Below are positions 11,542 to 60,334 of a DNA stretch of 64,000 nucleotides, piece after piece. The notes below the pieces were generated by a model. It had not been told where the DNA came from, did no database searches, and was given only the letters and a program-made list of their open reading frames with translations. Made by a program: the position numbers and the translations under genes. Position 1 is the first letter of the stretch, and every line of letters starts with the position of its first letter. Source of the stretch: Thermaerobacter sp. PB12/4term (GTDB lineage: Bacteria; Bacillota; Sulfobacillia; Thermaerobacterales; Thermaerobacteraceae); the NCBI RefSeq assembly GCF_003403315.2, contig NZ_CP048407.1:1054001-1118000 (forward strand). Reading direction: 5' to 3'.

Positions 11542-12603
11542 GTGCTTGAGTTTGATATGGAAAACCAGCCCTTTGCCGTGATCAAGGTGGTGGGGGTCGG
11601 GGGTGGGGGCAACAACGCGGTCAACCGCATGATCGAAGCGGGCCTGCGGGGCGTGGAGTTCCTGGCGGTGAACACCGACGCCCAGGCCCTTTCCGCATCC
11701 CTGGCCTCGGAGAAGATCCAGATCGGCCGCCAGGTCACCCGCGGCCTGGGTGCCGGCGCCGATCCGGAGATCGGCCAGAAGGCGGCGGAAGAGAGCCGGG
11801 AGGAAATCAAGGAGCGCCTCAAAGGCGCCGACATGGTCTTCATCACGGCCGGCATGGGCGGCGGCACGGGCACCGGCGCTTCTCCCGTCATCGCGGAGAT
11901 CGCCACGGAGGTCGGCGCCTTGACGGTGGGCGTGGTCACGCGGCCCTTCTCCTTCGAGGGGCGCAAGCGGGCGGCCCAGGCGGAGATGGGGATCAACAAC
12001 CTCAAGGCCAAGGTGGACACCCTGATCACCATCCCCAACGACCGCCTCTTGCAGGTGGTCGACAAGAAGACCTCCATCCTCCAGGCCTTCCGGGTGGCCG
12101 ACGACGTGCTCCGCCAGGGCGTGCAGGGCATCTCGGACCTCATCGCGGTACCGGGGCTCATCAACCTGGACTTCGCCGACGTCCGCACCATCATGATGAA
12201 CACGGGCTCCGCCCTGATGGGGATCGGCGTGGGGCGGGGCGAGACCCGGGCCGTGGACGCGGCCCGGGCGGCCATCTCCAGCCCCCTCCTGGAGGCATCC
12301 ATCGAGGGCGCCAAGGGCGTGCTGCTGAGCATCACCGGCGGCACCGACCTGGGCCTGTACGAGGTCAACGAGGCCGCGGAGATCATCGCCCAGGCGGCCG
12401 ATCCCGACGCCAACATCATCTTCGGCGCGGTGATCGACGAGAACCTGGAGGACGAGATCCGGGTGACGGTCATCGCGACGGGGTTCGACCCCAAGCCCAC
12501 AACGCCCGGGCCCGAACTGGACGACCTGCCCATCAAGCCCTTCACCGGGGACGACCTGGACATCCCCCACTTCCTGCGCCGCCGGCCGCGGCCGGCCCGC
12601 TGA
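11542..12603 (+). CDS. ftsZ: cell division GTPase FtsZ
   Basis: Tubulin homologue that forms the cytokinetic ring at mid-cell and the polar septum; 353 aa. The N-terminus reads [10 protein letters not shown] then [15 protein letters not shown], close to Bacillus FtsZ. The tubulin signature GGGTGTG is at 106-112, and the T7-loop region follows [11 protein letters not shown]. The tail ends in [11 protein letters not shown], the conserved peptide that binds SepF and FtsA. GTG 11542 is chosen from GGGGAGG (11527-11533) eight bases upstream. With ftsA missing here, SepF (20363) is a likely membrane tether. Confidence 0.98.
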
Positions 12604-12621
12604 ACCGGGGCGCGGCCACAT

Positions 12622-12655
12622 CTCGACATGTTTCCCAGTCCACGGGGCGTATAAT
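12622..12655 (+). promoter_or_regulatory. spoIIG-type promoter: 0A-like box, -35 and perfect -10
   Basis: TATAAT (12650-12655) is a perfect -10 box. A -35-like TCGACA (12623-12628) lies 21 bases upstream, longer than the usual 17. Overlapping it, the minus strand reads TGTCGAG (12622-12628), one mismatch from the Spo0A box TGTCGAA. The B. subtilis spoIIG operon is known to use a sigma-A promoter with a 22-bp spacer that needs Spo0A-P bound at the -35 side. The same arrangement in front of spoIIGA here suggests the same control. Confidence 0.6.
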
Positions 12656-12657
12656 CA

Positions 12658-12686
12658 GACCGCCGGCAGCGGGGCTGCCGGCGGTC
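12658..12686 (+). terminator. strong hairpin between ftsZ and spoIIGA
   Basis: Perfect 12-bp inverted repeat GACCGCCGGCAG/CTGCCGGCGGTC with loop CGGGG, starting three bases after the -10 box. No T-run follows. It could end ftsZ transcripts or form the very 5' end of the spoIIGA mRNA. Confidence 0.55.
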
Positions 12687-12789
12687 GTCGCCTCCAGGGC
12701 GGCTTGCCGCCCCGCCCGGGGCCCGTTCTACCGCCCGGGGGACCGGCATAGGCATGCCATTGTGGCGATGCGCAGCGGGGGCGAGGCGG

Positions 12790-14001
12790 GTGCCGTACGT
12801 CTACCTGGACCTGTTCGTCCTGGTCAACGCGGTGGTCGACTACGCCCTCCTGGCCGCCACGGCCCAGGCCACCCAGGCCCGCACCAGCCGCGGGCGCCTC
12901 GCGCTGGCCACGGCCTGGGGGACGGCCTTTGCCTGTGCCGTTACCCTGCTGCCCCCCGGTCCCTGGCGCAGCCTGCCCGCGGTGCTGCTGGCCTCGGTCC
13001 TGATGCTGCTGCTGGCCTTCTGGCCCGTAACGCCCCGGCGCCTGCTGGCCCTGACCGCCTGGTTCTACGGCCTGGCGTGCTTCGTGGCGGGAGGCGCCCT
13101 GGCCGTGCTCTCGCTGGCGGCGGGCGGCGACGGGCCGGGGACGGTTCCCCGGGTGTCGCCCGCCCTGGCGCTGGTGCCGGCGGTAGGGGCCGCCGTGGCG
13201 GCCGGCCGGTTCTTCTGGCAGGCCTGGCGCCGGCGGTCCCTGCCGGGACCGCTGTACGTCACCCTGCGGGTGGCCTGTGAAGGGCGCTGGCTGGACCTGC
13301 CCGCCCTGGTGGACACGGGCAACCAGCTGCGGGACCCCCTGACGGGCCTGCCGGTGGTGGTGGTGGAGGAACAGGCCGTGGCGCCCCTGCTGCCACCGGT
13401 CCTGCGGCAGGCGGTGGCGGCCGGGGACGACATCGCCGCCTGGGCCCGGGCGGCCGCCGGTGCGGGTTGGGTGGAGCGGCTGCGCATCGTGCCCTTCGCC
13501 TCCATCGGCCGGGAGCGGGGCTTTCTGGCCGGGTTCCGCCCCGACGCCCTGTGGCTGGCCGTGCCGGGCGGGGACGAAGACCGGCACCGCCGGGAACGGG
13601 GTGCAGGCGCTGCGCTGCCGGCAGTACCGGCCCCATCCCCGGACGGGCCGCCTGCGCCGCGGCTGCCCGCGGGGGGGCCGGCCCTGGCAGGACCGGCGGC
13701 GAGCCGGCTCGCCGCCGGGACACCCGTGGAGCCCGAGCGGGATTGGGCCGCGGCCGCCACCACCGACCCGGGGGCGGAAACGCCCGGCGAGCCGGGCGCT
13801 GGCGGCGAGACGGCGGCGGCGCCAGCGGCGGCGGATCACTCCGTGGAGCCCCCAACCGGCCGGTGGCGCCCGCTGGGACCGGCGGTGGTGGCCGTCTTCC
13901 CCGGCCGCTTCACCGGGGATCAGCATTACGTGGCCCTTCTGCCCATCGCGTTGCTGGAGGCCCCGCCCGCCGGCCGGCAGGCGGCGGCGCGGGTGTCCTA
14001 G
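12790..14001 (+). CDS. spoIIGA: sporulation sigma-E processing protease SpoIIGA
   Basis: Mother-cell membrane aspartic protease that removes the pro-peptide of sigma-E after the SpoIIR signal from the forespore; 403 aa. The N-terminal half has about five membrane segments beginning [15 protein letters not shown], typical of SpoIIGA. The protease half contains the DTGN active-site motif with Asp175. A Pro/Ala/Gly-rich insert of about 95 residues (260-355) sits late in the protease domain, making the protein longer than the roughly 310 aa of Bacillus SpoIIGA. GTG 12790 aligns with the family start; ATG 12754 would add twelve residues. sigE follows after 28 bases. Confidence 0.88.
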
Positions 14002-14029: not shown

Positions 14030-14764
14030 ATGCGGCATCAGTGGCTCCGGTTGAAGTGGTCCGTGCGGCTGGCCATCCTGCGCTGGCTCTTGCGCAGCGG
14101 TGCGGCTTGGCTGCCCGTGCATTACATCGGCGGCAGCCAGGCCCTGCCGCCGCCGCTGACGGCCGACGAGGAAGAACTGCTGCTGGACCGCCTGGACGAG
14201 GACGATCCGGCGGTGCGCCACACCCTGATCGAGCGCAACCTGCGCCTGGTGGTCTACATCGCCCGCAAGTTCGACAACACGGGCATTCCCATCGAGGATC
14301 TGGTGTCCATCGGCACCATCGGCCTGATCAAGGCCGTGAACACCTTTGATCCCTCCAAGCGGATCAAGCTGGCCACTTATGCATCGAAGTGCATCGAGAA
14401 CGAGATCCTCATGCACCTGCGCCGCACCAGCCGGACCCGCTACGAGGTGTCGCTGGACGAACCGCTGAACGTCGACTGGGAAGGCAACGAACTGCTTCTT
14501 TCCGACGTGATCCCCGCCACCGACGGGGACGTGATCTACCGCGACCTGGAGGCCAAGGTGGACCGGCACCTGCTCCACCGCGCCCTGGCGCGGCTCACCC
14601 CGCGGGAGCGGCTGATCATGGAACTGCGGTTCGGCCTGGTGGACGGCATCGAGCGCACCCAGAAGCAGGTGGCCGACCATCTGGGGATCTCCCAGTCCTA
14701 CATCTCCCGGCTGGAGAAACGGATCATCAACCGCCTGCGCCGGGAGATCCGCAAGATGGAGTAG
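14030..14764 (+). CDS. sigE: RNA polymerase sporulation sigma factor SigE
   Basis: Mother-cell-specific sigma-70 family factor, made as an inactive precursor; 244 aa. The first 28 residues are a basic, hydrophobic pro-sequence with [10 protein letters not shown], followed by [14 protein letters not shown] near the cleavage region. Region 2 is clear ([32 protein letters not shown]), and region 4 ends in a helix-turn-helix around [20 protein letters not shown] 14030 follows GAGGGAGGA. It is the likely substrate of the adjacent SpoIIGA, and both are probably read from the promoter at 12622-12655. Confidence 0.97.
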
Positions 14765-14886
14765 CTGGGGGAAGCAAGGGGGCCGCCACCCGGGCGGGAT
14801 CCTATTGATAACCTTTTTCAATTGGTGACGGCGGTCACAGTGGGCCGGCCGCGGCCGGTGCATCCTGGAACCGGGAGGTGGTCCCG

Positions 14887-15225
14887 ATGCCAGGGACACC
14901 GGCGGTCACGGTGGCGCTGTCCGAGCGGGAGATGGCCCTCCTGCGGAACGTTGCCGACTTTGCCGGTTTCGGCTGTGACATCCACGCCGTGGAGGTCGAA
15001 CCGGCGGTCGAACCGCAGGAGCTGGAGGAACTGGTCGATACCCTGGATGCGGCCATGGAGGCCGGGGAGGCCCCGGTGCTGACGCGCCGGCAGCTGGAGG
15101 TGGCCTTCGGGCTGCTGGACTATCAGCAGTGGCAGTGCCCGCTGGCCACCTGGTGTGAAGTGGACGACGCGACCCAGGATGAGCTCGACGCCTTGCGGGA
15201 GAAGATCCAGGAAGCCCTCACCTGA
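14887..15225 (+). CDS. small protein of unknown function between sigE and sigG
   Basis: A 112-aa cytoplasmic, strongly acidic protein that I do not recognise. ATG 14887 has GGGAGG eight bases upstream. The predicted protein is helical with no signal peptide: an N-terminal strand TPAVTVALSE, a central acidic helix PQELEELVDTLDAAME, a segment LLDYQQWQCPLATWCEVDD, and an acidic C-terminal helix. Cysteines near the end (QCPLATWC) and one in FGCDIH could bind metal or form a disulfide, but no known motif is complete. It ends 17 bases before a strong terminator. sigE and sigG are usually adjacent in Bacillota, so its insertion here is notable. It is probably real, judging by its start signals and balanced composition. 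Confidence 0.65.
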   Translation: MPGTPAVTVALSEREMALLRNVADFAGFGCDIHAVEVEPAVEPQELEELVDTLDAAMEAGEAPVLTRRQLEVAFGLLDYQQWQCPLATWCEVDDATQDELDALREKIQEALT

Positions 15226-15242: not shown

Positions 15243-15278
15243 GCAAAAGCCCCGCAGCCTGTGCTGCGGGGCTTTTGC
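15243..15278 (+). terminator. intrinsic terminator after the sigE cluster
   Basis: Perfect 15-bp stem GCAAAAGCCCCGCAG/CTGCGGGGCTTTTGC with loop CCTGTG, followed by TTTCTTCCCTT. The A-run on the left arm would also let it work for minus-strand transcripts. It separates spoIIGA-sigE from sigG. Confidence 0.92.
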
Positions 15279-15470: not shown

Positions 15471-15500
15471 TGAATAACGGCTTCCAGCCACGCGCATACT
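15471..15500 (+). promoter_or_regulatory. sigma-F/sigma-G type promoter for sigG-spoIIR
   Basis: TGAATA (15471-15476) and CATACT (15495-15500) are separated by 18 bases. In Bacillus the forespore factors sigma-F and sigma-G recognise a GNATR-type -35 and a CATNNTA-like -10 at this spacing, and sigG itself is transcribed by sigma-F and sigma-G. The pair lies 86 bases ahead of the sigG start and downstream of a terminator, so it is the expected position for this promoter. Confidence 0.65.
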
Positions 15501-15585
15501 CCCCGTTGCAGGACGAGCCCGGGCTGTGCGCACACAGCCTGCCGGCAAAGGCAGCGTCCGGCAGGCGGGAGGGAACCGCGTGCCC

Positions 15586-16365
15586 ATGAGCCGCATGATC
15601 AACAAGGTGGAGATCTGCGGGGTCAATACGGCCGAACTGCCGGTGCTGTCCAACGAGCAGATGAGGGTCCTGTTTCGCCGCATGCGCGAGGGCGACGAAG
15701 AGGCCCGCCAGCAACTGGTGCAGGGCAATCTAAGGCTGGTTTTGAGCGTCATTCAACGTTTCAATCACCGGGGCGAACCGGTGGACGATCTGTTTCAGGT
15801 GGGATGCATCGGCTTGATGAAGGCCATCGACAACTTTGACCTGGAACAGAACGTCCGCTTTTCCACCTATGCCGTGCCGATGATCATCGGTGAGATTCGC
15901 CGGTACCTGCGCGACAACACCCCCATCCGGGTCAGCCGTTCCCTGCGCGACGTGGCCTACAAGGCCTTGCAGGTGCGGGACCAGCTGACCCACCGGCACG
16001 GGCGCGAACCCACCCTGGAAGAGATCGCCCAGGAGCTGGGCCAGCCGCGGGAAGAGGTGGTCCACGCCCTGGACGCCATTCAGGACCCGGTGTCGCTGTT
16101 TGAGCCCATCTACCAGGACGGCGGCGACCCCATCTTCGTGGTCGACCAGGTCAGCGACGACAAGCAGCGCGACGAGCGGTGGCTCGAGACCATCGCCGTG
16201 CGCGAGGCCATGTCGCGCCTGGATGAGCGCGAGCAGCTGATCATCACCAAGCGCTTCTACCAGGGCAAGACCCAGATGGAGGTGGCCAACGAGATCGGGA
16301 TCTCCCAGGCGCAGGTGTCGCGCCTGGAAAAGGCCGCCCTGCAGCGGATGCGCAAGTACATGTGA
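15586..16365 (+). CDS. sigG: forespore sigma factor SigG
   Basis: Late forespore-specific sigma factor, 259 aa, nearly the length of the Bacillus protein. The N-terminus MSRMINKVEICGVNTAELPV is a hallmark of SigG; in Bacillus this segment is bound by the anti-sigma factors. Region 2 contains DDLFQVGCIGLMKAIDNF and VRFSTYAVPMIIGEIRR. Region 4 ends with the helix-turn-helix around NEIGISQAQVSRLEK. ATG 15586 is preferred, with GTG 15580 closer to the GGGAGGG site as an alternative. spoIIR follows after 13 bases on the same strand. Confidence 0.96.
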   Translation: MSRMINKVEICGVNTAELPVLSNEQMRVLFRRMREGDEEARQQLVQGNLRLVLSVIQRFNHRGEPVDDLFQVGCIGLMKAIDNFDLEQNVRFSTYAVPMIIGEIRRYLRDNTPIRVSRSLRDVAYKALQVRDQLTHRHGREPTLEEIAQELGQPREEVVHALDAIQDPVSLFEPIYQDGGDPIFVVDQVSDDKQRDERWLETIAVREAMSRLDEREQLIITKRFYQGKTQMEVANEIGISQAQVSRLEKAALQRMRKYM

Positions 16366-59825: not shown

Positions 59826-60334
59826 CGCAACCCCTCCTCCGGGGTGATCCTGCTGGTTGGCCGTCCATTGGACGCCTGCAGGGCGGTACCGGTTCCCGCC
59901 CCCGATCGCCCTTCACGGGCGGGCCCGGGGAAAGCACGCCGGCCCGCCCGGACATGCCCTTCAAGTCCTGTCCCTCATAGCCGCCCGGGCCTGTGCATAG
60001 GCATGGTGGCGCGGCACCGGGCGCCCGCTCGCCGCAGGCCGGGGACGGGCGCCCCGCCAGCGGGAGGAGGTAGGCCGTGGTTCGTCCAGGAAACGACCGC
60101 GCCAGCCGCCGGCCGGATCGGGTATCCTCCGCACCGGCCCCCGCCGGGCGGGCGGGCGGATTTGTGCCGGAACCAGGCTCCGGCAGGTCCCGGCCCGGCG
60201 ACCCGGGGGGGCTCCGGGGGACCCGTTCGACCCGATCAGTTTCCCTGCCGCCGGGCCGGAGCCCTGCCGGGGGCGGGGCGCTCCGACCCGGGGGAGGAGG
60301 CCATCGCGGCCGGGGGCGGGGGGAGGCACGGCAG
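59826..60334. other. 509-base gap between divergent lipoprotein and ATPase genes
   Basis: No convincing gene. The plus frame of the ATPase is open back to a GTG at 60077 with GGAGGAGG upstream, which would add 86 Arg/Gly/Pro-rich residues. No -35/-10 pair recognised on either strand. Confidence 0.4.

Follow-up and report, generated by a model that had tools for sequence, protein, structure and literature searches.

A probable Spo0A-type spoIIG promoter with a conserved long spacer in Thermaerobacter, and a candidate sigma-E promoter downstream of it

The spoIIGA-sigE operon of this Thermaerobacter genome raises the question of what kind of promoter starts it: the two promoter-like elements upstream, here called P1, stand 21 bases apart, and they could reflect chance, an ordinary sigma-A promoter or the counterpart of the Bacillus subtilis spoIIG promoter, in which the long-spacer mechanism was worked out. 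The window, that is, the whole 64-kb stretch of DNA analysed, has a GC content of 73% and belongs to a genome (G000) of 2.82 Mb in a single contig. Within it ftsZ is followed by spoIIGA, sigE, a small ORF and sigG, in that order, and the ftsZ stop at 12603 leaves an intergenic stretch of 12604-12789 before spoIIGA. The genes concerned and the parts of P1 and its surroundings are the following.

12612-12618, minus strand: possible degenerate second half-site TGGCCGC, in tandem, 10 bp from the first box; weak
12622-12628, minus strand: 0A-like box TGTCGAG, six of the seven bases of the core TGTCGAA, overlapping the -35-like TCGACA
12623-12628, plus strand: P1 -35-like hexamer TCGACA, read from the letters
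12629-12649, plus strand: P1 spacer of 21 bases, beginning with TGTTT in agreement with the T-rich tract that follows GACA throughout the class
12650-12655, plus strand: P1 -10 element TATAAT, likewise read from the letters
12658-12686, plus strand: perfect 13-bp inverted repeat with a 3-base loop, lying at the predicted RNA start or immediately ahead of it
12790-14001, plus strand: spoIIGA (sigma-E processing peptidase), GTG start proposed
14030-14764, plus strand: sigE (sporulation sigma factor E), ATG start proposed
15586-16365, plus strand: sigG (sporulation sigma factor G), ATG start proposed

The spoIIGA product scores above the cut-off of Pfam PF03419 and matches NCBIfam spore_II_GA below the cut-off of that model. 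P1 lies upstream of spoIIGA-sigE, as expected of a spoIIG-type Spo0A/sigma-A promoter. Farther downstream, the ORF between sigE and sigG (14878-15225, 115 aa) is without a Pfam or NCBIfam match, and a strong terminator at 15243-15278 follows it, which should separate sigG from the spoIIG transcript. When the forespore-type promoter consensus is applied to the region upstream of sigG, a candidate promoter of its own appears at 15471-15501 (TGAATAA at 15471 and CATACTC at 15495), approximately 90 bases before the gene.

The original prediction described a perfect TATAAT and a TCGACA 21 bases apart, with TGTCGAG on the opposite strand over the -35. Letters and coordinates agree on both counts: a script re-check reads CTCGACA on the plus strand at 12622-12628, the position of the opposing box. 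A standard promoter scan with spacers of 16-18 returns nothing at P1, as expected, and the P1 letters show no TG one base ahead of TATAAT, as an extended -10 would have. No strict TGTCGA[AG] is found nearby upstream of P1, the nearest other upstream match to this strict pattern in the window being at 535. Only the TG of the possible second half-site is kept within the family, and class column -7 is C in a fraction of 0.66. From the position of the -10, transcription is expected to start at about 12659-12663.

Judging from the sequence, P1 is very probably orthologous to the spoIIG promoter of B. subtilis, i.e., a sigma-A promoter activated by Spo0A~P, in which the -35-like box doubles as a 0A box. 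A 21-base gap would exceed the usual grip of sigma-A on both elements and, the spacer being too long for sigma-A, P1 would be nearly silent until Spo0A~P occupies the box. Bound there, Spo0A~P would contact sigma-A, and RNA polymerase would then open the perfect -10, which would couple expression of spoIIGA-sigE to the sporulation decision. Once sigma-E is active, a candidate second promoter, P2 (12726-12755), might let it transcribe its own operon. By analogy with B. subtilis, we infer Spo0A binding, phosphorylation dependence and the transcription start at P1.

The P1 pair is not a product of chance. Over the 2.82 Mb of the genome there are 95 copies of TATAAT (52 on the plus and 43 on the minus strand) against 38 of its backwards control, and only two of the TATAAT copies lie in the window. 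Exact GACA-N14..26-TATAAT pairs number 10 in G000, 10 in G002 and 13 in G003, compared with 0, 0 and 4 for the controls. Their spacers are 16 (1), 17 (3), 18 (4), 21 (1) and 23 (1) in G000; 16 (1), 17 (5), 18 (3) and 21 (1) in G002; and 14 (1), 16 (2), 17 (4), 18 (5) and 21 (1) in G003. In each of these three Thermaerobacter genomes the sole exact GACA-N21-TATAAT is that of spoIIG, which therefore departs, with its spacer of 21, from the 16-18 of nearly all other promoter-like pairs in the same genome.

Conservation extends well beyond the genus. TCGACAT, TTT, the 21-base spacer and TATAATCAGACCGC are all kept in five of five family genomes (G000-G004), so that the outcome named beforehand as grounds for refutation, a 0A-like box missing from near relatives, is not seen. 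In the alignment of these five genomes, 16 consecutive columns, CGTATAATCAGACCGC, are invariant at a mean column identity of 66% overall; outside TCGACAT, TTT and CGTATAATCAGACCGC the intergenic remainder has diverged. Across the class, SpoIIGA is present in 130 of the 145 genomes searched, and 128 upstream regions were read (the 130 minus G045, G056 and G115, which have an absent or disrupted gene start, with G027 added). Under a strict rule, [CT]GACA with a TAnnnT that has at least four matches to TATAAT, 89 of the 128 regions carry a pair at 21 (59) or 22 (30), while a spacer of 23 occurs in one region, 25, 26 and 27 in two each, and 15-20 or 24 in none. Fifty dinucleotide shuffles gave a mean of 0.4 and a maximum of 3 regions in 128, and the reverse strand a single pair, at 21. 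At least one strict pair is found in 35 of the 46 class families.

Among the other 39 regions, which fail the strict rule, many preserve the spacing while differing in a letter, for example TTACA-N21-TATGAT in family f7, and 16 score above 11 with altered letters at this spacing by a weight matrix built from the 89 strict regions (threshold 11, spacer 21 or 22). The remaining 23 of the 128 stay under 11, and families f27, f33, f40 and f43 are without a clear P1. In a sample of the phylum, SpoIIGA was matched in 135 of 149 genomes and 70 of the 129 members outside the class were read, giving 42 strict pairs at 21 and 4 at 22. Matrix scores above 11 at 21 or 22 are reached by 105/128 class, 57/70 other phylum and 59/61 named Bacilli regions, to be read against a background at other spacers of up to 15/70 and 23/61 in the latter two, AT-richer sets. 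The spacer of 22 bp that had been stated for B. subtilis is borne out by the named Bacillus-group genomes, which read TTGACA-N22-TATACT at spoIIG; in the B. subtilis group a tandem CTCAACA box lies ten bases farther upstream. The original prediction had further proposed strong conservation of the activation mechanism in a distant, GC-rich genome, and this proposal gains support from the class and phylum geometry, from spoIIE and from an unchanged Spo0A helix. B. subtilis spoIIG also has a distal upstream 0A site, which is absent or varies among relatives and was therefore not taken as a requirement for a promoter of this type. Many genomes of families f8 and f47 (e.g., L091 and L095) carry a further TGTCG box approximately 34 bases upstream, oriented towards the one at the -35; this facing box is absent from the window. 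We found no report on conservation or spacing of the spoIIG promoter across the phylum in the open-licence literature consulted.

The presumed activator and its other targets are in keeping with this geometry. Spo0A_C is found in 27 of the 28 genomes scanned, G000 included, and the G000 domain aligns with the solved Bacillus Spo0A structures 1fc3 and 1lq1 over 103 residues, with the stretch SRVERAIRHAIEVAW, which we take to be the Spo0A recognition helix, identical. Upstream of spo0A itself in G000 (L254), tandem 0A-like boxes read TGTCGGA-N3-CGTCGAC, which suggests that this gene may be autoregulated through them. One source (PMC12090719) counts both spoIIG and spoIIE among the sigma-A-dependent part of the Spo0A regulon. 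At spoIIE a pair at 21 or 22 is present in 18 of 20 genomes: G000 has CGACA-N22-TACAAT, and G003 and G002 have TGACA or CGACA-N22-TACAAT. With the long spacer also at spoIIE, it appears to be a mark not of spoIIG alone but of sigma-A promoters that Spo0A activates.

Could P1 instead be an ordinary sigma-A promoter that works from its perfect -10, with TCGACA incidental and the spacer irrelevant? TATAAT is rare and enriched in this genome (95 against 38), and a perfect -10 alone could suffice. However, such a promoter would hardly keep to a spacer of 21 or 22 bases in 89 of 128 regions, and to 15-20 in none, while most other pairs in the same genomes have 16-18, nor would it account for the many relatives of G000 that have weaker -10s and retain the box; we regard it as very improbable. 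Less probable again is that the box is read by a regulator other than Spo0A. It is true that just six of the seven core bases are matched and that the pairing of Spo0A with the box is made here from sequence, but TGTCGAG retains all of G2, C4 and G5, the letters at which the core TGTCGAA is contacted according to PMC3485338, a like motif precedes spoIIE and, in tandem, spo0A, and the Spo0A helix is unchanged.

The least probable of these readings places the cause of conservation downstream of P1, in the block 12656-12686, which would act on ftsZ read-through as a terminator or an RNA element. In G000 approximately 20 bases separate the end of ftsZ from the -35, this gap holds no terminator, and the inverted repeat, which begins two bases past TATAAT, is kept genus-wide with one compensatory change from an A-U to a G-C pair. 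Nevertheless, the hairpin is followed by no T-run and no terminator is predicted there, on which grounds we rejected it as a terminator; Rfam gives no match at this place, and its sole match (E 0.033, below the gathering score) was discarded since it falls inside ftsZ. The box and spacer are, moreover, kept in genomes that lack the hairpin. The fold of the stretch is ordinary for its composition (z -1.2); the hairpin might shield the 5' end of the RNA or act on early elongation. The Spo0A-activated orthologue of spoIIG is the reading of P1 that we retain.

Two results go beyond the original prediction: the phylum-wide conservation described above and a candidate sigma-E-type promoter, P2, between P1 and the gene. 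Its elements are as follows.

12726-12732, plus strand: P2 -35-like TTCTACC, found with a spoIVA-trained matrix; TTCTACG stands at the equivalent place before spoIVA of G006
12747-12755, plus strand: P2 -10-like CATAGGCAT, 14 bases past the -35-like element

Sigma-E promoters have the spacing CATA-N16/17-CATA. In the interval from P1 to spoIIGA, 23 of the 128 class regions contain CATA-N16-CATA and 12 contain CATA-N17-CATA; the reverse strand has neither. For a reference we turned to spoIVA, described as a sigma-E target in PMC3789822: spoIVA of G000-G004 carries CATATACAT with ACATATC 13 bases upstream, and that of G007 carries CATAGACAT, the very letters of the spoIIG element of G002. P2 has the form of a sigma-E promoter, with a CATAnnnAT -10 and a spaced -35 of the kind seen at spoIVA. 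A matrix trained on 16 spoIVA promoters (threshold 12) is exceeded in 50 of the 128 spoIIGA regions, in 1 of 128 on the reverse strand and in 1 of 125 stretches taken farther upstream. Five of the 50 (G008, G009, G090, G094 and G140) reuse letters of the P1 box, spacer or -10 as their -35 and were discounted, which leaves 45 regions in 12 rather than 16 of the 46 families. The window element, TTCTACC-N14-CATAGGCAT, scores 15.8 forward; when the spoIVA sites of its own family and order (f1 and f2) are left out of the training, it scores 15.3 forward against 2.7 in reverse.

P2 is not a universal feature. It is absent from G004, a member of the same family, and outside the class the matrix passes 12 in 27/70 forward and 18/70 reverse regions of the phylum set, for which we make no claim. 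In family f8 the P2 -35 mostly starts 8-15 bases past the P1 -10 (36 in G110). A loose sigma-E-like pattern has only two further matches in the window, at 59976-60004 on the plus strand, preceding a calcium-type P-ATPase (60077), and at 52703-52675 on the minus strand, preceding an ORF of unknown family (52572, minus strand).

If P2 is driven by sigma-E, then sigma-E feeds back on its own gene, and the occurrence of P2-like elements suggests that sigE may be autoregulated in this way in the class. Feedback loops on the own gene are described for sigma-F, sigma-G and sigma-K in those parts of the literature available to us. For sigma-E autoregulation of spoIIG we found no report in the open-licence literature consulted. 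We lean slightly towards a model in which, in this class of deep-branching spore formers, two successive promoters serve spoIIG: a Spo0A/sigma-A promoter of ancestral long spacer would start expression, and a sigma-E promoter behind it would lock it on in the mother cell. Such autoregulation through P2, if true, would change the mother-cell circuit as drawn for the class, and it is a testable prediction; P1 would be the orthologue of a known promoter and P2 is the novel lead. That a spacer unfit for sigma-A has nevertheless stayed at 21 or 22 bases in lineages as far apart as Bacillus and Thermaerobacter strongly indicates that the Spo0A dependence of spoIIG is an ancestral trait of sporulation in the phylum. 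The rule YGACA-N21/22-TAnnnT also locates the starting points of spoIIG and spoIIE in spore formers that have not been studied.

Comparison with known systems places both promoters. The nearest sister of P1, the spoIIE promoter, shares the long spacer of 21 or 22 and differs by an upstream facing box, TGTCGCAA, present at Thermaerobacter spoIIE (G000, G002 and G003) and missing at spoIIG of the window. P2 resembles the sigma-E promoters of spoIVA in its CATAnnnAT -10 and in the position of its -35, but reads TTCTACC rather than ACATATC, with a gap of 14 where the genus has 13. In Clostridioides difficile, a sigma-A promoter upstream of spoIIGA, mapped by RNA-seq, has comparable GTGACA and TATAAT boxes, and sigE expression requires Spo0A; the portion of that report available states no spacer length and describes no sigma-E promoter at this gene (PMC3789822). 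Measured against B. subtilis spoIIG, P1 has 21 rather than 22 bases between its elements, TATAAT rather than TATACT and CGACA rather than TGACA, the window is without a strict upstream box near P1, and a sigma-E-type promoter is added downstream. The gene, the direction in which the 0A-type box reads across the -35, the long spacer and the T-rich tract after GACA are nevertheless the same in both.
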